A stretch of DNA of 54,292 nt from Haemophilus paraphrohaemolyticus (GTDB lineage Bacteria > Pseudomonadota > Gammaproteobacteria > Enterobacterales > Pasteurellaceae): positions 1-54,292 of the forward strand of contig NZ_MUXX01000001.1 in assembly GCF_002015045.1 (NCBI RefSeq), given 5' to 3'. The notes below the pieces were generated by a model, which saw nothing but the letters and a program-made list of their open reading frames with translations, searched no databases and was not told the origin of the DNA. Made by a program: the position numbers and the translations under genes. This document shows positions 34,546 to 50,660 of this stretch, one piece after another (the first letter of the stretch is position 1; each line of letters opens with the position of its first letter).

Positions 34546-35150
34546 AAAGCAGATCAAGATTATGTGGAAGGTTTAGAGCGTGACGTTAAAGCTAATACTC
34601 AAGATATTAAAGAGTTATCAGAAGGTATTAGAGATAATATCTTACCAGCAATTGAAGCAAACCGTACAGACATTGATGCAAATAAAGCAGATGTTGATAC
34701 ATTGAAAAATAAAGTAGCTGGAGCAGCTGCTGCTGTTGACTTGCTTACTCAAAATATTGCGTTAAACAAAACTAATATAGAGTCTAAAGCAGATCAAGAT
34801 TATGTAGAAGGTTTAGAGCGTGACGTTAAAGCTAATACTCAAGATATTAAAGAGTTATCAGAAGGTATTAGAGATAATATCTTACCAGCAATTGAAGCAA
34901 ACCGTACAGACATTGATGCAAATAAAGCAGATGTTGATACATTGAAAAATAGAGCAGATGGAGCAGCTGCTGCTGTTAACTTGCTTGCTCAAAATATTGG
35001 CTTAAATAAAACCAACATAGAGAAAAAAGCAGATAAAGCAGATGTAGATGCTTTGAAAAATAGAGTAGATGGAGCGGCGGCAGCAGCTAATTTACTTGCT
35101 CAAAATATTGGCTTAAATAAAACCAACATAGAGAAAAAAGCAGATAAAAC
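34546..35150 (+). repeat. 240-bp and 111-bp nested tandem repeats in the adhesin
   Basis: Bases 34546-34785 and 34786-35025 are a near-identical tandem duplication with a 240-base (80-codon) period, differing at only a few sites in the portion compared. The final 111 bases (37 codons; ...LLAQNIGLNKTNIEKKADK) of the second copy are repeated once more up to about 35136. The periods are multiples of three, so copy-number change would lengthen or shorten the stalk without losing frame. Confidence 0.9.
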
Positions 35151-35401
35151 AGATGTAGATGCAAATAAAGCAGCGATTGGTGATCTAGCAACAGTAATTG
35201 ATGAAGCAGTCACAAATCTAGACGGAGTAGTAAATGATTTACATGGAGATTTATCAGTAACCAAACATACTGTAGCAGAAAATCGTAAGGACATTGACAA
35301 AAACGCTTCACGTATTACAAATACTCGTAATAAACAAGTTCTTCAAAATGCTCGTTTAGATAATCACAGTAATAGAATTGGTGTGAATGAAGCTGCAATC
35401 G

Positions 35402-35540
35402 CAACTAACAAAGCTGATATTGAAACTAACAAAGCTGATATTGAAACTAACAAAGCTGATATTGCAACTAATAAAGCTGATATTGCAACTAACAAAGCTG
35501 ATATTGCAACTAACAAAGCTAACATTATCACTAACAGAGC
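35402..35540 (+). repeat. 21-bp tandem repeats encoding 7-residue stalk units
   Basis: About six to seven units of AACAAAGCTGATATTGAAACT and close variants (GCAACT) encode TNKADIE/TNKADIA heptads, then decay into TNKANII, TNRANIA and ANTAAIA. This is a coiled-coil array just before the anchor domain and a typical site of slippage. Unit changes keep the frame. Confidence 0.9.
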
Positions 35541-35883
35541 TAACATTGCAGCTAACACAGCGGCAATTGCAACACACAATCAACGCCTTGATCATTTAGA
35601 TAATAGAGTTAATAAACTTGATAAAGATCTTAAACGTGGTCTTGCTACTCAAGCTGCTTTAACAGGTTTATTCCAACCATATACTGTAGGTAAAGCAAAC
35701 TTTACGGCTGCTGTTGGTGGTTATAAATCTCAAACTGCGGTTGCTATTGGTACAGGTTACCGTTATAACAAGCATGTTGCAACTAAAGCAGGTATCGCAT
35801 TTACTCAAGGCGGTGCTGCTTATAATGTTGGTGTGAATTTTGAATGGTAATAGATAACGAAGTTTATCTAATGACTTAAAATC

Positions 35884-42897: not shown

Positions 42898-43015
42898 GTT
42901 TTTTTGCAGAAAAAATTAGAAAATGGAGAGTATTTGATTAGATAACCAGCAAAATAATGGATAAAATGATTAAATTTTAATCTTTTTATGATCGAAAATT
43001 TATCATATTTTAAAT

Positions 43016-43062
43016 AAATCCCCTCTCCCTTGGTGAGAGAGGGGGAGGGATAGGGGGAAATC
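43016..43062. repeat. CT/GA-rich dispersed repeat between recA and lolE
   Basis: CCCCTCTCCCTTGGTGAGAG followed by AGGGGGAGGGATAGGGGGAA forms a strong hairpin directly at the lolE stop. It is a diverged relative of the repeat family at the window ends and may terminate the lol operon on the minus strand, although no T-run follows at once. Confidence 0.6.
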
Positions 43063-44311
43063 AATACCCACTCAATACCTTCGCAGGCTCTAATTTTGCT
43101 GCACGTGATGCCGGGTAGAGGCTTGCGCATAAGCTCAACACAATGGTGGCAAGCAATACATAAACAATATCTTGCCAATGCAATTCGCTTGGTAGGAAAT
43201 TGACAAAATAAACGCCTTCAGAAAGCACTTGAATGCCAAGTAGATTTTCTAGCCCCTTGATAATACTGGTTAAATTCAAAGCTAACCCCACACCAAGCAG
43301 AATGCCTAACACCGCCCCTTTCATGCCTGAAAGTAAGCCATACCAGAGGAAAATCCGTTTAATAAAACCGTTATTTGCCCCAAGTGTTCGCATAATCGCG
43401 ATATCACCTTGCTTATCTTTTACCGCCATCACCAGCGTTGAAATAATGTTAAAACACGCTACGCCTATGACAAGCACCATTGCAATATACATCACTGTGC
43501 GAACTAGCTGGATGTCGTTATACATATAGCCAAATTTATTGACCCAAGTGTTCAAATAAAGCGGTTGATTAAAGTGATTTAATTGCGAAAGATCCAACTG
43601 CTGCACATCAAAGGGAGAACGCAAAGCCAACTCCACGCCCGTCACTTCGCCTTGTTCGTAATCTAACAATTCTCGTGCTTTTTCAATCGGTAGCAAGGCA
43701 TAGCTGTAATCCAACTGCCCCTCTAATTTCAAAATGCCCGTAATTGGTAAGTTAAAACGCAACGGCTGAGCCAAGCGGTCGTTTTCACTTGCTTGTGGCA
43801 GCAACAAAGTCACCTCATCGCCTACATCTACTTCGAGTGCTTTCGCAATGCCTGCTCCTAAAATCAAGCCGCCTTCTTTTTTAAAAACATCCCATTGATT
43901 ACCTTGCACAAAATGCCCAAGCTGGCTCACGCTCTCTTGCTTTTGCGGATCAACACCTCGCACTTGAGCAATTTTGAGCTGCGTGCCGTTTTCAATCAAA
44001 GCTGTAAAGGTAATAAATGGCGCGGTGGCAAGCACGTTTTCACTCTGTTTAACCAATTTTTCGAGCTGAACAGGATCTCTAATCACGCCCTCTTTATTGC
44101 CATCGTATGCATAAACTTCCGCGTGTGGCACAACGGAAAGCACACGCTGATTAAGCTCACGCTCAAAGCCATTCATTGCACTTAAACCAATAATCAACAC
44201 TGCCACGCCCAAGGCAATTCCTATTGTCGAAAACCACGAAATCAGAGATACAAGGCGATTTTTCTGCTTACCTTTTTGATAACGCCAACTAATAAAAAAC
44301 GGAGTGTTCAT
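43061..44311 (-). CDS. lolE: Lipoprotein-releasing ABC transporter permease LolE
   Basis: This 416-residue FtsX/MacB-type permease has four membrane segments (about 20-45, 270-295, 315-345, 380-405) and a large periplasmic domain between the first two. The start FFISWRYQKGKQKNRLVSLI is typical of LolE. With LolC and LolD it extracts mature lipoproteins from the inner membrane and passes them to LolA. The ATG overlaps the lolD stop (TGATG). Confidence 0.93.
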   Translation of the reverse strand: MNTPFFISWRYQKGKQKNRLVSLISWFSTIGIALGVAVLIIGLSAMNGFERELNQRVLSVVPHAEVYAYDGNKEGVIRDPVQLEKLVKQSENVLATAPFITFTALIENGTQLKIAQVRGVDPQKQESVSQLGHFVQGNQWDVFKKEGGLILGAGIAKALEVDVGDEVTLLLPQASENDRLAQPLRFNLPITGILKLEGQLDYSYALLPIEKARELLDYEQGEVTGVELALRSPFDVQQLDLSQLNHFNQPLYLNTWVNKFGYMYNDIQLVRTVMYIAMVLVIGVACFNIISTLVMAVKDKQGDIAIMRTLGANNGFIKRIFLWYGLLSGMKGAVLGILLGVGLALNLTSIIKGLENLLGIQVLSEGVYFVNFLPSELHWQDIVYVLLATIVLSLCASLYPASRAAKLEPAKVLSGY

Positions 44312-44991
44312 CAGCCTTCCTCACGCAATACGCCATCTCGCATCACGAAACGACGCGAGAGTTTTTGGGCCAAATTTAGATCGTGGGTCACCAATAAAAA
44401 CGCGATATTTTGTTCTGCATTGAGCTGTTTGATCAGATCAAAAATGCTCTCGGTGGTTTTTTGATCCAAATTCCCTGTTGGCTCATCTGCAAGTACTAAA
44501 TCAGGATTATTCACTAAAGCACGAGCAATTGCCACACGCTGACGCTCGCCGCCTGAAAGCTCTGATGGACGATGCGTAATTCGGTGAGATAATCCGACCG
44601 CTTGCAACATCTTTTCAGCACGATCTTTTGCTTCCGATTTGTTCTGTTTTCCAATTAACATCGGCATCATCACGTTTTCCAATGCAGTGAAATCCGCCAT
44701 CAAATGATGGAACTGATACACAAAGCCTAAATGCTGATTTCGTAAGCTCGCAAGTTTATTTGCACTCAGTTTTTGCAAGGATTGATCTTGAATCCATACC
44801 TTGCCCGAACTCGGTTGGTCTAATCCGCCAAGCATATGTAAAAGCGTACTTTTGCCCGAACCTGAACTCCCTACAATTGCCACCAGCTCGCCAACATTCA
44901 TTGAAAAAGAAACCTCTTTTAATACCTGAACTTTGTGATCGCCCTCGTCATAAAATTTACTTATGTTTTCACAGCGGAGTAATGTTGTCAT
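44311..44991 (-). CDS. lolD: Lipoprotein-releasing ATPase LolD
   Basis: This 226-residue ABC ATPase has Walker [10 protein letters not shown], the LolD motif [20 protein letters not shown], signature LSGGERQR, Walker [13 protein letters not shown] and switch His VTHD. It powers lipoprotein release with LolC/E. Its start overlaps the last base of the upstream restriction gene stop (TAATG); in E. coli that upstream neighbour is lolC. Confidence 0.96.
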
Positions 44992-45719
44992 TATGATTTA
45001 CCTTTTCTTGCTACAGCATCTTTAATCGCTTTTTCGATATCATTGTCAATTAATTTATATTTATCAAACAGATTTATATTGTCATTTTTTATATGTAACT
45101 GACCTTCATTACCATGATTTCCGCGATGCTGTCCTTTTGAAAATAACTCATGAGAGGCAACTTCATCTGAATTTAAAACCCATAGAATAATTTCATCACG
45201 AAATACCGCTAGCCAAATAAACACATCACAACATTGAGGCTTTAATTGTTGAAAATTCATTAAAAAGCGTTTATGAGTATTACTTGATAATGCTTTAATA
45301 TATAAAGGTTCATCGCTATCAGAATCTACAGCTCTTGAAGCCTTAACTTCAATTTTGATTCCATCTAGCCATAAATCATATTCACCTTTAAAATCAGCAT
45401 CTAATTTTTTAGATGGGGAAAGCAATTTATTACTTTTCCCTTTTACATAAGTTTGTGCAAATTTCTCACCAAAACCTCGAGGTGCTGAGATTTCAAATAT
45501 CCATAAGTTTGGATTTGAATTGATATATTCTGTTCTAATATCAATGTATTGCTCGTAAGTTAAACCTTTCTTCTCAATAAAAGAAATAATAAGATGCTCA
45601 TACTCATTGAAAGGATAGACTGCTCTATCATCTTCTATCATTTGTAAAACATCCATAAGATCTTTTTCACTACCAGAGAAAGAAGAGATAATTCTACTTT
45701 TTAATTCTGAAAGTTCCAT
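44991..45719 (-). CDS. Probable type II restriction endonuclease (PD-(D/E)XK)
   Basis: This 242-residue protein has no close relative that I recognise. The block [19 protein letters not shown] fits a PD-(D/E)xK nuclease core (Asp in EYDLW, then E-V-K), and a following Q/W-rich strand region ([17 protein letters not shown]) fits the fold. Its start lies 26 bases inside the methyltransferase gene and its stop overlaps lolD. Paired with an adenine methyltransferase, it is almost certainly the cognate restriction enzyme. The recognition sequence cannot be told. It is AT-rich compared with lolC and lolD. Confidence 0.75.
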
Positions 45720-47301
45720 TTTTTTCCTTAACTAAACCTAATAATGATAAATATTCAATTTCATTAAATAAGTTATCCTTTATAAATTGAGGGTAGATAG
45801 GCAATTGCTCTAAATCACCTCTTAATACTTTATGGGTATTAAATAACTTATGAAAAACCCAATTCATAAAACTACTATTAAATAAATCAGATAACACTTG
45901 CATAGAAACCGGAAAACCTTTCTCAACTATTATCATATTAGCGCTATTCAATACATAATACTTGTCTTTATCATAGTAGAAACATAAGTTAGAAGAAATA
46001 AATTTATAAATTAACTTTTGTTCTGCTTCAAATATTTCTCTAGGTGCGACCTGCTGATATTGTGAGAAATCGTTTGATAAAAAATTGGTTGCAGATTTTA
46101 ATCCTTCTTTCGTAATATCAGAACCTTTAAACACAGGAATAGAATCAGTAAATGGTTGTTTTTTCAGGAATTTTTCATTATTTCCAGTTACAATACCTAA
46201 TCCCCATTTAGCTCTATGTTCTAATGTTTCATATGGTAAACTAAATAAATATTCAATAACCTTGGATTCTTGAGCATCACAATTTAAATTAAAAATTAAT
46301 TTTGGATTAGAAATAAATGATTTTGCACTTCTATTAAAGATATTTCCTTTATAATTACAAATAATATCTTTATCTGAATTTGATTTTCTTTTATTCAAAA
46401 CAAAAGAAACTGCTCCAGTTTGTAAACCTTTAAATGCTTTACCATAATCTGTTAGGTTTAAAATGTCATACTTTAACATTTCCTGCCTAGCTGCTTCGAA
46501 TGCCGCAACATTGAAAAATGCTTCAGGTAAAAGCAATCCTAAATTACCATTTTTCTTTAGTAAAGAAAGAGACGCGAAAAAGAATAAAGAGCAAGTGTCA
46601 TTACTTGTTCCTGCATTTAATAAATTTGCATAAAACTCTTTATCTTTCTTATCTATTTTTTTGCCCCATGGAGGATTAGTATAAATAAGATCATATTCTT
46701 CTAAACCATTTTCTTTATACTTTTCTAAGAAATCAGCACAAATAATATTTTCTGAAATATACCCTGTCTTTTCTTTTATACGTTTCTTAGTAATTTCTAC
46801 TGCAAGTGGATCAATATCTATGCCATAAATATTTTCTGGTTTCACACCTAGTTCTATAGCACGCATAATAAAGTTTCCAGAACCACAACAAGGATCTAGA
46901 AATGTTTTTGTTGATAAATCACCTTTTATATTGAGTAAATCATTAACTATTTCTTCAGGAGTGTAGTAAATTCCTTCTTTATTTCTATAAGAATCAGATA
47001 AGCTTTCTTCATATCTCTTACCAAGATAGGCAATATTATTACTCTCTATCTCTTGAAGAATAAATTTGGTGAGTTCTTGATGGTTATGGCTATCCTTCTG
47101 GGATTTGTTTGCCCGAGAAGTTAATTTCTCTTTTCCTAATTTATTCGCTTTAAATTCAAATACAGATTGTTTATCAATTTTCCCTTTTCCGATTAAAGAT
47201 AGATAGCCAGTTTTAACCCAATTTCGAATTGTTGCAGTTGATACAGAAAAAAATTCAGCGGTTTCTGCAATAGTAAAAGCATTATTCTGCATTTTATTCA
47301 T
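45694..47301 (-). CDS. N6-adenine DNA methyltransferase with N-terminal HTH
   Basis: This is a 535-residue protein. Residues 8-52 form a helix-turn-helix of the MerR/excisionase type (FTIAETAEFFSVSTATIRNWV). The SAM motif I FLDPCCGSGNF (about 138-148) precedes the catalytic motif IV NPPW (about 208-211), as in gamma-class TaqI/Eco57I-like adenine methyltransferases, and a target-recognition domain follows at the C-terminus. It starts with ATGAATAA, which overlaps the lolC stop by 8 bases. A hand count of 46201-46260 gives 16 G/C in 60, against 29 in 60 for a lolC segment (47701-47760), suggesting foreign origin. Confidence 0.87.
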   Translation of the reverse strand: MNKMQNNAFTIAETAEFFSVSTATIRNWVKTGYLSLIGKGKIDKQSVFEFKANKLGKEKLTSRANKSQKDSHNHQELTKFILQEIESNNIAYLGKRYEESLSDSYRNKEGIYYTPEEIVNDLLNIKGDLSTKTFLDPCCGSGNFIMRAIELGVKPENIYGIDIDPLAVEITKKRIKEKTGYISENIICADFLEKYKENGLEEYDLIYTNPPWGKKIDKKDKEFYANLLNAGTSNDTCSLFFFASLSLLKKNGNLGLLLPEAFFNVAAFEAARQEMLKYDILNLTDYGKAFKGLQTGAVSFVLNKRKSNSDKDIICNYKGNIFNRSAKSFISNPKLIFNLNCDAQESKVIEYLFSLPYETLEHRAKWGLGIVTGNNEKFLKKQPFTDSIPVFKGSDITKEGLKSATNFLSNDFSQYQQVAPREIFEAEQKLIYKFISSNLCFYYDKDKYYVLNSANMIIVEKGFPVSMQVLSDLFNSSFMNWVFHKLFNTHKVLRGDLEQLPIYPQFIKDNLFNEIEYLSLLGLVKEKNGTFRIKK

Positions 47302-48466
47302 ACCTCAACGCCTGAGCTGGTTCAATTTTCGATGCACTAAATGCGGGATAAAGCGTACACGCGAGCGATAATAAAATCGATACCACCGCAATCACCGTAA
47401 TTTGCGTTGGAGAAATCAAAGTTGGCAACACAATCGCAGGGTTAATCATTGCAATCAATGTATCTAAATTCATTGCGGCAACTACACCTAAAACGACACC
47501 TAAAATCGAGCCAATAATCCCCACAATTGAGCCTTGGAAAATAAAAATTTGCATCACTTGCGGTTTGGTTAAGCCTTGAGTTTGTAAAATCGCAATTTCG
47601 CCCTGTTTATCTACCACCATTAAACTTAGTGAGGTAATAATGTTGGAAATCGCCACCACAATAATCAAGCTCACCAGCAAGCCCATCATATTTTTTTCCA
47701 TTTTCACCGCTTGGAAAAACTCGCCTTTCTGCTCGCGCCAATCGTGGATTTGGTACTGTTCTTCAGGGAAGTAACGGCTTAATTCGGTAACTTGGAACGG
47801 GTCGTTTAAATACAAGCGTATGCCTTGAATATGCTCGTTATCGATCCTGAGCAGTCGCCCCACATCCACTAAATTCGCAAATAGCGTATATTCGCTGCCA
47901 TTACTATTCGCATAATAGAACCCTGAAATATGAAACAGACGTTGCATCGGTACTCGTCCCATCGGTGTGTATTGGCTGTTTTCAGTAATCATAATGCGGA
48001 TTTTTTCACCTACATTCAGATTCAATTTTTGAGCCAATTGCCAGTTAATTAGCACGTTAAATTCGCCTTCGGGCAGAAGCTGCGCCACATTTTCGCCATT
48101 TAAAAGCGGATCATCTTGGGTATTTTCCACACCAATTAACGAGCCTGCTTCAATCCCTTGCTGACTTTGAATAATGATATTCGTACGGTTAATTGGATTA
48201 GCTTGAGTCACAAAATCTGGTTGGGGCTGTTGCTCATTTTTTGCAAAATGTCCATCAATTGGCATCACAACCGCATGTGGCAGTGTAGAAAGCAAATTAC
48301 GCTTTTGCATATTTTCCAAGCCGTTCATAATGGAAAGCACAATCACCAATGCCATTACGCCTAGCACAATGCCAAAGCTGGCGAGATTGGTCACCAGTCG
48401 CCCAAAACGATCGGCACTTTTCGTTTGCCAATACCGCCAAGCGATAAATAGGGAGGTAAAGTTCAT
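47294..48466 (-). CDS. lolC: Lipoprotein-releasing ABC transporter permease LolC
   Basis: This 390-residue FtsX-type permease is paralogous to LolE. It starts FTSLFIAWRYWQTKSADRFG, with the first membrane segment at about 22-46, a periplasmic domain to about 255, three more segments and the conserved end ALRYE. LolC provides the LolA-docking hook. It is the first gene of the lol operon; the next two genes on the strand are a restriction-modification pair, with lolD only beyond them. No good ribosome binding site is visible before the ATG. Confidence 0.93.
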   Translation of the reverse strand: MNFTSLFIAWRYWQTKSADRFGRLVTNLASFGIVLGVMALVIVLSIMNGLENMQKRNLLSTLPHAVVMPIDGHFAKNEQQPQPDFVTQANPINRTNIIIQSQQGIEAGSLIGVENTQDDPLLNGENVAQLLPEGEFNVLINWQLAQKLNLNVGEKIRIMITENSQYTPMGRVPMQRLFHISGFYYANSNGSEYTLFANLVDVGRLLRIDNEHIQGIRLYLNDPFQVTELSRYFPEEQYQIHDWREQKGEFFQAVKMEKNMMGLLVSLIIVVAISNIITSLSLMVVDKQGEIAILQTQGLTKPQVMQIFIFQGSIVGIIGSILGVVLGVVAAMNLDTLIAMINPAIVLPTLISPTQITVIAVVSILLSLACTLYPAFSASKIEPAQALRYE

Positions 48467-48484
48467 ATTATATAAATCATGCGA

Positions 48485-48565
48485 AGTACTTCACTCCCTC
48501 CATTTACGGAAGGGGGAAGTAAAAAATAAAGGGAAGACTATCTTACCATCTTCCCTCTTTTTGCT
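48485..48565. repeat. CT/GA-rich repeat pair upstream of lolC
   Basis: CTCCCTCCATTTACGGAAGG (hairpin) and, after an AT-rich spacer, GGGAAGACTA...TCTTCCCTC form inverted CT/GA-rich arms between the hydroxyacid dehydrogenase gene and lolC. They resemble the family at the window ends and could also serve as the terminator for the dehydrogenase gene on the minus strand. Confidence 0.5.
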
Positions 48566-48575
48566 AAAACATTAA

Positions 48576-49523
48576 TTACTTGCCCGTTTTTACAAACTCT
48601 TCAATATTTTGAGCAACTTTATTAACCAATGTTGTGACCGCTGAATCGCTTGCCCACGCAATGTGTGGGGTAATCAACAAATTCGGTAAGCGTTTTGCCG
48701 CTTGAACTAACGGATCATCAATCGCAGGCGGTTCTTTTACCAGCACATCTAACGCAGCGCCTGCAATTTGGCAAGTTTCTAACGCATTCAACAATGCTTT
48801 TTCATCTACCACAGGTCCACGACTGCAGTTAATCAAATAAGCTGTTGGTTTCATCAATGCCAAGGTTTCTGCGTTAATTAAGTTTTGAGTTTGTTCCGTA
48901 AGCGGGCAATGTAACGTGATCACATCCGCCTGTTTGAACACCTCTTCAAATGGGGTGTAACCTTCACGAATCGTGGTCGCACCTTTGTGCTCTGCAAAAA
49001 TTACGTTCATTCCGACCGCTTGTGCAAGGCGTGCCACTTCAGCTCCAGTGTTCCCTCTACCGAATACACCAAGCGTTGCACCACGAATATCGGTAATCGG
49101 ATAATCGGTGTAGCAGAACTGCCCACAAATCGCCCAACGGTCGCTGGTCACTTGGTCGTGATGGTAACTCATTAAGCTATGTTTAAGCGAAAAAATCATC
49201 CCCAATACGTGCTCTGGTACAGTAACAGAAGAGTAACCCGTCACATTTTTCACACAAATGCCAAGCTCTTTTGCTGCCACTAAATCCACGTTATTTGTGC
49301 CTGTTGCCGTAATGGCAATCAGTTTTAATTTAGGTAATTTCGCTAATAATTCACGCCCAAGTAATACTTTACTGGTCACGATAATATCAGCATCTTTGGC
49401 ACGCTCGAAGGTTTCATCCGCGCTAGTTCGGTCATACTCCACCCAATTATGCGGAAAGCTTAGACGAGGAATATTGTGTGTGGCAGGAATGCCTGTGCGG
49501 TCTAAAAATACAATGTTTAGCAT
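48576..49523 (-). CDS. D-2-hydroxyacid dehydrogenase
   Basis: This 315-residue NAD-dependent D-isomer 2-hydroxyacid dehydrogenase has the dinucleotide loop GVFGRGNTG, substrate-site Arg in NCSRGPVVDE, a catalytic Glu downstream (VKEPP) and the His in TPHIAWAS. Length and the N-terminal NIVFLDRTGIP resemble glycerate or hydroxypyruvate reductase-like enzymes next to lolC in other Pasteurellaceae. The true substrate is not determined by sequence. AAGGAG precedes the ATG. Confidence 0.88.
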   Translation of the reverse strand: MLNIVFLDRTGIPATHNIPRLSFPHNWVEYDRTSADETFERAKDADIIVTSKVLLGRELLAKLPKLKLIAITATGTNNVDLVAAKELGICVKNVTGYSSVTVPEHVLGMIFSLKHSLMSYHHDQVTSDRWAICGQFCYTDYPITDIRGATLGVFGRGNTGAEVARLAQAVGMNVIFAEHKGATTIREGYTPFEEVFKQADVITLHCPLTEQTQNLINAETLALMKPTAYLINCSRGPVVDEKALLNALETCQIAGAALDVLVKEPPAIDDPLVQAAKRLPNLLITPHIAWASDSAVTTLVNKVAQNIEEFVKTGK

Positions 49524-49560
49524 AGCAAGCTCCTTTTTCTTTTGTGTTGTAAGGGATATG

Positions 49561-49604
49561 CAAGCGGTCGAGTTTACAAAAAATATTGCAAATTCGACCG
49601 CTTG
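49561..49604. other. Paired uptake sequences between mglC and the dehydrogenase
   Basis: CAAGCGGTCGA and TCGACCGCTTG are exact inverted copies 22 bases apart. Read on the minus strand they follow mglC and could form a terminator stem, but no T-run follows. GTAAGGG/CCCTTAC (49615-49635) gives a second small hairpin nearer to the mglC stop. Confidence 0.6.
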
Positions 49605-49649
49605 TTATTGATGTGTAAGGGTAAATTGCCCTTACTTTATTCTGATTAA

Positions 49650-50660
49650 CTATTTTTTCTTCGCGTATTTCAATGAGTCAATTGCTACTGCTAAGACGAT
49701 GATACCGCCTTTGATGATGTATTGCCAGTAAGGGTTTACGCCGATGTAGGTTAAGCCGTAGTTGATAACGGTGAAGATTAACACCCCTGTTACTACACCG
49801 ATAATTGTACCCACACCACCTGCGAATGACACACCACCTACTACGCAAGCTGCGATTGCGTCCATTTCATACATAAAGCCTAAGTTGTTGGTTGCGCTAC
49901 CAATACGACCTGCTTCTAACATACCTCCGAAGGCATAGAAGATACCAGACACCATATAGATGCCCATTAAGTTCAGTGCAACGTTTACGCCGGATACTTT
50001 CGCTGCTTCTGGGTTACCACCAATAGCGAATACGTTTTTACCGAAGCGGGTTTTGTTCCATAAAATCCACATAATCACGGTTGCAATCGCTGCATAAATA
50101 GTGATGTATGAGAGCTTAAAACCACCAATTCGGAAGAAACCTTGTGTGAAGTCGGAGAAACTTTCGCTAAAGCCTGCGATTGGTGATGAACCTACAGCAT
50201 CATAGTAAAGTGAGTTGATACCGTAGATGATGATCATTGTCCCCATTGTGGCAATGAATGGTGTTACGTTTAAGTAAGCAATCACAAAGCCATTAAACAA
50301 ACCGATAATTGCACCGATACCGCAGATGATAAGCACAACCACCGGGATTGGCATTTCAGCAAGGTTCGGGAATACTTTGTTCATATTATCCATTGCTTGT
50401 AAGAGCGTAGCAGAGATTACCGCAGCAAGACCGACCTGACGACCAGCGGATAAGTCGGTACCTTGGGTAACAATCAGCCCTGCGACACCAAGAGCGATAA
50501 TTAAACGTACTGAAGATTGGGTTAAGATGTTACTAAAATTTCGTAAACTCAAAAAGCTAGGATCTTGTGCGATGATGATAATAAGTAAAATCAATAACAC
50601 AAAATAGATGGCATTTTGTTTCAGAAAATTAAGTGCTTTGTTAGGTTGTACAGCAGACAT
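49650..50660 (-). CDS. mglC: Galactose/methyl galactoside ABC permease MglC
   Basis: This 336-residue membrane protein has about eight to ten hydrophobic segments and the sugar-permease signature (EMDAIAACVVGGVSFAGGVG, the EAA-like loop). It forms the channel of the galactose importer with MglA and MglB. It starts 14 bases after mglA with CAGGAGTGAATT as ribosome binding site and is the last gene of the operon. Confidence 0.95.
   Translation of the reverse strand: MSAVQPNKALNFLKQNAIYFVLLILLIIIIAQDPSFLSLRNFSNILTQSSVRLIIALGVAGLIVTQGTDLSAGRQVGLAAVISATLLQAMDNMNKVFPNLAEMPIPVVVLIICGIGAIIGLFNGFVIAYLNVTPFIATMGTMIIIYGINSLYYDAVGSSPIAGFSESFSDFTQGFFRIGGFKLSYITIYAAIATVIMWILWNKTRFGKNVFAIGGNPEAAKVSGVNVALNLMGIYMVSGIFYAFGGMLEAGRIGSATNNLGFMYEMDAIAACVVGGVSFAGGVGTIIGVVTGVLIFTVINYGLTYIGVNPYWQYIIKGGIIVLAVAIDSLKYAKKK

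Follow-up and report, generated by a model that had tools for sequence, protein, structure and literature searches.

The junction between lolC and lolD in Haemophilus paraphrohaemolyticus is occupied by a two-gene restriction-modification (RM) cassette, inserted without any intergenic DNA into the essential lipoprotein-export operon lolCDE. We analyzed a stretch of 54,292 nucleotides containing this locus (hereafter, the window), and compared the junction across Pasteurellaceae and E. coli. Taken as a whole, the evidence makes it likely that a mobile RM cassette was acquired, was set exactly between the lolC stop and the lolD start, is co-transcribed with the operon, and lies at a recurrent docking point. 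The RM pair itself is ordinary, a new addition to a known family, and it is the location that is unusual.

Gene order and composition of the lol locus

The open reading frame (ORF) list of the window places lolC, an adenine methyltransferase (MTase), a restriction endonuclease (REase), lolD and lolE on the minus strand in this 5' to 3' order, with zero intergenic DNA (Table 1), which confirms the order given in the first-pass annotation of this DNA. Successive genes overlap by 8 nt (lolC/MTase, taken as ORFs), 26 nt (MTase/REase), 1 nt (REase/lolD) and 1 nt (lolD/lolE, TGATG); the first three values are those of that annotation, and the last replaces its value of 3. In addition to the match listed in Table 1, LolC matched NF008076 at 4.8e-125, below that model's own cut-off. 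The operon is adjoined by recA and a dehydrogenase gene, named by eye from the ORF list. A strong GC-rich hairpin lies directly 3' of lolE (43020-43044, CCCCTCTC...GAGAGGGG), which by appearance is a terminator or a REP-type repeat. Elsewhere in the window, a plus-strand ORF with a YadA-type membrane anchor (34564-35850) likely encodes a trimeric autotransporter adhesin.

Table 1. Features of the lolC-lolE region of the window
Feature	Position	Strand	Basis or detail
lolC, permease subunit of the lipoprotein-releasing transporter	47294..48466	-	TIGR02212 above cut-off
lolC 3' end, TTG AGG TAT GAA TAA	47294..47308	-	contains ATG overlapping the stop by 8 nt
MTase, N6-adenine DNA methyltransferase	45694..47301	-	PADLOC, Pfam, alignment A2
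MTase/REase dual-coding overlap, 26 nt	45694..45719	-	...NGTFRIKK* (MTase) and MELSELKS... (nuclease)
REase, type II restriction endonuclease, 242 aa	44991..45719	-	PADLOC, alignment A1
REase stop / lolD start (TAATG)	44991..45004	-	AAGG at 45004-45001 in the last REase codons
lolD, ATPase subunit, intact	44311..44991	-	TIGR02211 2.4e-109, above cut-off
lolE, permease subunit	43061..44311	-	NF008357 and TIGR02213 above cut-off

The proposed AT-richness of the inserted genes was borne out, with a GC content of 28-30% compared with 42-44% in the lol genes (MTase, 28.2%, GC3 0.18; REase, 29.9%, GC3 0.18; lolC, 42.3%, GC3 0.44; lolD, 43.3%, GC3 0.41; lolE, 43.6%, GC3 0.44). The motifs AAGTGCGGT and ACAAGCGGT, which we take to be uptake-sequence cores, occur 4 and 15 times in the whole window. 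None of these 19 cores of the two types lies in 44991-47301, as the first-pass annotation had noticed, and this absence is a weak sign with little meaning, because that density predicts only about 0.8 cores for 2.3 kb.

Identity of the RM pair

The MTase matched the PADLOC model MTase_II PDLC03356 over nearly its full length (3.8e-188), with a domain order of N-terminal helix-turn-helix (a weak match), N6_Mtase and TaqI_C. In Pfam, PF02384 and PF12950 scored above cut-off, and PF12728 (6.8e-5) below its cut-off. The motifs are intact: residues D136-F144 (DPCCGSGNF, which we take to be the SAM site) are invariant save S141 (at least 90%), and N209-W212 (NPPW, presumably catalytic) are invariant, in 23/23 aligned sequences. 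The homologue P0123 looks like a mosaic, its first ~180 residues being 97-100% identical to the window MTase and the remainder, from about residue 180 onward, 88-100% identical to P0129, a pattern that suggests exchange of the specificity half.

The REase matched PADLOC REase_II PDLC03414 over nearly its full length (5.1e-121), with no Pfam match at E ≤ 0.001 and no NCBIfam match. Residues D115...E124-x-K126, invariant in 30/30 aligned sequences, resemble the D...E-x-K arrangement, which we assume to be the catalytic core of PD-(D/E)xK nucleases. The best Foldseek match in the PDB for the AlphaFold model (pLDDT 83) was NhoI, a weak match (E about 1e-3, TM 0.35/0.51), and none counted at E ≤ 0.001; sequence searches of the PDB with the single query and with the alignment returned no match. 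The two genes are adjacent and both proteins match type II models, which supports the proposed RM pair as type II-like, with methylation and cutting of one and the same site predicted. No experimentally named enzyme was found for the PDLC03356 and PDLC03414 pair.

The cassette in other bacteria

Of 4538 candidates, 4306 were REase relatives at E ≤ 1e-3; one homologue, P0005, is 89% identical. A pattern scan with one genome per species yielded 29 foreign REase loci from many phyla at 63-73% identity, none of them with a Pasteurellaceae title. The REase was not found in phage or plasmid records, nor in a pattern scan of viral contigs. Both genes were present in 27 foreign loci, and these resemble the window in their MTase-then-REase order and in an overlap of exactly 26 nt in 22 (20 nt, 35 nt and three not measurable in the remaining five). 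Since the overlap is the same in 22 of 27 foreign loci, it is a property of the cassette that predates the insertion in the window. Cassette GC was below that of the flanks in 24 of the 27 loci; low GC being usual for the cassette elsewhere, it says little about the age of the insertion.

The setting is where the window differs. With starts placed by alignment, 27/27 foreign cassettes had no ORF of at least 120 aa ending within 25 nt upstream, and wherever an ORF of at least 120 aa lay downstream, it did not start within 66 nt (24/24). The pair is thus a separate cassette in the foreign loci, whereas the window copy sits within an essential operon and abuts its neighbors without intergenic DNA; a flush fit on both sides was seen only in the window among the window and the 27 foreign loci. 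A search for an operator of the MTase helix-turn-helix upstream of 26 foreign cassettes gave no k-mer clearly above shuffles (best 6-mer 11 versus 10 in shuffles; 7- and 8-mers no higher than in shuffles), and the cassettes had no inverted repeat in common.

Acquisition of the cassette

The REase was found in 0/140 Pasteurellaceae genomes at E ≤ 1e-5, in a search that recovered 6/6 known carriers, and the MTase in 0/140 at E ≤ 1e-20, the carrier control covering the REase search only. Because neither gene was found in the 140 genomes, the cassette was probably acquired horizontally and is not ancestral, as the first-pass annotation had held. In a FastTree tree of LolD and LolE (43 of 137 inner branches open), the window fell in a clade of 21 rows (support 100), adjoining L084/L085 (89). 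The lolC-lolD spacer is 2302 nt in the window and 14-28 nt in the relatives L072, L080, L082-L084 and L067. Among the 120 LolC matches listed, Actinobacillus, Mannheimia and Haemophilus paracuniculus reached 73-75% identity and others reached 95-97%.

These data are consistent with a mobile, AT-rich, two-gene type II RM cassette, from a family spread across many phyla, having been acquired by an ancestor of this Pasteurellaceae lineage. The cassette would have recombined exactly between the stop codon of lolC and the start codon of lolD, displacing a short spacer whose nature is deduced from relatives with LolC at most 75% identical among those named. No recombinase (integrase or transposase) was present among the window ORFs searched, including 10 further ORFs, no direct repeats flank the cassette, and no target duplication was seen. 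Since neither a recombinase nor a target duplication was seen, entry was likely through transformation-mediated or illegitimate recombination, and passages of PMC4176335 raise similar routes for small acquired RM regions.

The lolC-lolD junction across Pasteurellaceae and E. coli

Next, we examined the prevalence of insertions at this junction. LolD was found in 139 of the 140 Pasteurellaceae genomes (G459 had no LolD match), and upstream DNA was taken to ~11 kb, with shorter stretches where a contig ended (L075, L076, L087 and a small number of further loci). With tight linkage defined as a gap of at most 130 nt from the lolC stop to lolD, 81 loci were tight; the gap was 131-300 nt in 7, 301-900 nt in 5 and 4614-4743 nt in 24, and lolC was not upstream of lolD in 22. 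One locus, L137, with a broken lolC and a gap of 117 nt or 345 nt by two measurements, was counted as tight; its lolC match (in G394) contains two in-frame TAG codons, either a sequencing error or real. The junction was thus not tight in 58/139, comprising 24 with a biotin operon, 12 with other spacers or genes, and the 22 without upstream lolC. In 21 of the latter, lolC was elsewhere, on another contig, distant on the same contig or downstream of lolD (G473), and G417 had no LolC match. By contrast, lolD and lolE were contiguous in 139/139 (gaps -4 to 98 nt).

On the LolD and LolE tree, six coarse junction states required 9 changes, where 5 would be the minimum, and fine labels required 16; with L137 placed in another class, nine labels needed 18 changes, or 17 once L076, for which only 194 nt upstream of lolD are available, was left unlabelled as on the tree. 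The same junction therefore received unrelated cargo in different lineages while the neighboring lolD-lolE junction stayed unbroken, supporting the view, suggested in the first-pass annotation, that it is a recurrent site of gene gain, loss or swap. Unlike the window, E. coli showed no large insertion: a query spanning the junction was covered to at least 80% in one place in 5375/5375 genomes with a match, where joins of up to ~800 nt could mask a small insert (51 of 5426 genomes had no match).

The most frequent occupant was a biotin operon. All 24 long gaps contained matches to all five genes of the L101 gap, bioA, bioF, bioG, bioC and bioD, and H. influenzae HI1550-HI1554 presumably has the same lolC-bioAFGCD-lolD arrangement, which fits the non-adjacency of lolC and lolD in that species put forward in the first-pass annotation. 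This arrangement resembles the window in having foreign genes at the same junction, but is a metabolic operon of ~4.6 kb that starts 3' of the lolC stop and not at the overlapping ATG. In locus L079 (G461), the lolC stop and lolD are separated by a 265-codon ORF (22.7% GC), which has AGAGG shortly ahead of its stop and no family match in Pfam, NCBIfam, PADLOC or PHROGs. This unrelated, non-RM cargo fits the junction as tightly as the cassette does in the window, and its nearest tree neighbor, L082 (G464), has an empty site with a 23-nt spacer. L081 carries a GNAT gene that starts further down than the lolC ATG, and L099 retains a 27-residue relic like the 3' end of that gene (59%, E 9e-5), so occupants of the junction can decay; L077/L078 have, by eye, an apparent deletion scar of the same region. 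Long spacers without a recognized gene also occur (e.g., L066 and L173). In an Actinobacillus-like group, named by its LolC matches, a palindromic element of the CCACGGAA...TTCCGTGG type lies at the junction (spacers of 209 nt in L066 and 111 nt in L068; L069-L071, L073, L074 and L204 similar in beginning or length), and is perhaps a small mobile repeat.

Sharing of the start codon at the lolC stop

Where lolC lies upstream of lolD (117 loci), it ended in TAT GAA/GAG in 87, in TAC GAA/GAG in 28 and otherwise in 2 (one being L137). The TAT ending gives an ATG that overlaps the lolC stop by 8 nt, and the TAC ending (28/117) gives none. In E. coli this ATG is the annotated lolD start, the lolC/lolD overlap of 8 nt lying at the same codons as lolC/MTase in the window. 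In 24/117 loci this ATG begins a frame of at least 100 codons, namely lolD in 23, in some of which later lolD starts are also possible, and the 265-codon ORF in L079. Among 20 fetched genomes with lolC and lolD apart, it opens a membrane-protein frame of 211-219 codons in 13. The frame begins MNKKSPIP.../MSRKSPIP... in its carriers (L213, L216-L219, L221, L223-L228 and L232), and one such protein of 214 aa had no Pfam match.

In the window, the ATG at the lolC stop (47301) opens the MTase frame, of 535 codons, or 532 from 47292. The latter position, codon 4, lies 1 nt past the lolC stop and has GAGG at 10 nt (duplex -6.9 kcal/mol), compared with a ribosome-binding duplex of -2.5 kcal/mol and a spacing of 1 nt for the first ATG. 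Homologues P0122 and P0123 start at the codon-4 position, and P0121, P0124 and P0125 at the first ATG. Judged by these signals, codon 4 is probably the true MTase start; translation of the MTase would begin at the lolC stop or 1 nt past it, by way of the GAGG in lolC. The N-terminus of P0121 (99% identical) reads MNKM as in the window, and those of P0124 and P0125 (73%) MNNM, as expected if these genes also follow a lolC stop. The longest contig with P0125 has a length of 2677, equal to that for the REase homologue P0005. A separate homologue with the same start, together with five ORFs intact across the junctions, makes it very improbable that the contig is misassembled and that the RM genes are located elsewhere.

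These frames suggest why docking at this site may recur: lolC mostly ends in TAT-GAA/GAG-stop, supplying a ready overlapping ATG, and tight lolC-lolD linkage appears dispensable in Pasteurellaceae. We tentatively propose, while thinking it somewhat doubtful, that the lolC end is a protein-constrained translational docking socket, in which a Tyr-Glu ending can carry a start codon at the stop that is passed from lolD to a membrane gene, an AT-rich orphan or a restriction cassette, with the essential gene driving captured cargo without promoter or integrase. A counterpoint is that the biotin genes and the GNAT gene start further down and that 28/117 loci lack the ATG. A simpler account, to which we give a substantial chance if a little short of even, is that the site is merely tolerant, so that any lolC-lolD insert survives if lolD stays translatable, the shared ATG being a by-product of Tyr-Glu-stop with no role in capture. 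The two occupant classes without a start at the ATG (biotin operon and GNAT), as well as the long spacers without a recognized gene, fit this account, but, lolD aside, three unrelated genes have their starts at or beside the same ATG, and the likewise tight lolD-lolE junction is broken in 0/139.

Expression from the lol operon

The minus strand of 44991-47301 contained no terminator-like site, and the 20 promoter-like sites were at chance level (shuffles of 43000-49700 gave 21.2 ± 4.6). The simplest route of expression would therefore be read-through that starts upstream of lolC, and the lol genes and the RM pair are likely co-transcribed. For the MTase (from codon 4), the REase and lolD alike, a Shine-Dalgarno-like stretch lies within the preceding gene. 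The nuclease would start inside the MTase 3' end, and lolD may be read via such a stretch in the last nuclease codons. Because each gene has its own stretch, overlap need not mean coupling, and in the PvuII system a tested overlap showed no translational coupling (PMC2997769). Co-transcription as proposed in the first-pass annotation thus remains likely, and obligate translational coupling, its companion claim, is not supported.

The same annotation had reasoned that deletion of the cassette would endanger lolD expression and thereby fix the module. On this reasoning the RM genes would act as an addiction module locking the lol operon, their insertion having been selected as a selfish fixation strategy. 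The cassette is indeed flush on both sides, with the lolD start overlapping the REase stop by 1 nt and the lolD ribosome-binding stretch within the REase. We nevertheless consider such lock-in unlikely: it is weakened by lolC and lolD being apart in many genomes (lolC is not upstream in 22/139), occupants can decay, as in L099, non-RM cargo is equally tight in L079, and precise loss would presumably restore the ancestral junction.

Discussion

RM genes have been placed in comparable contexts before: passages of PMC3031569 describe RM genes on operons among other mobile contexts, and passages of PMC4176335 take small acquired regions as a hint of small integration hotspots. Those passages name no lol operon, and the sharing of the start codon and the further occupants come from the present study. 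Best-matching titles in the literature, including those on RM insertion and coupling and on Pasteurellaceae methylomes, contained none that names an RM system at the lolC-lolD junction.

We favor an acquired cassette at a recurrent docking point. Its restriction system would most likely be expressed from an essential housekeeping operon rather than from a locus of its own. The comparison suggests that a short coding junction can act as a hotspot without an integrase, and the docking site, not the RM pair, is the interesting part. The same comparison could be applied to other essential operons with start-inside-stop overlaps, asking whether conserved protein ends give reusable entry points for defense genes.
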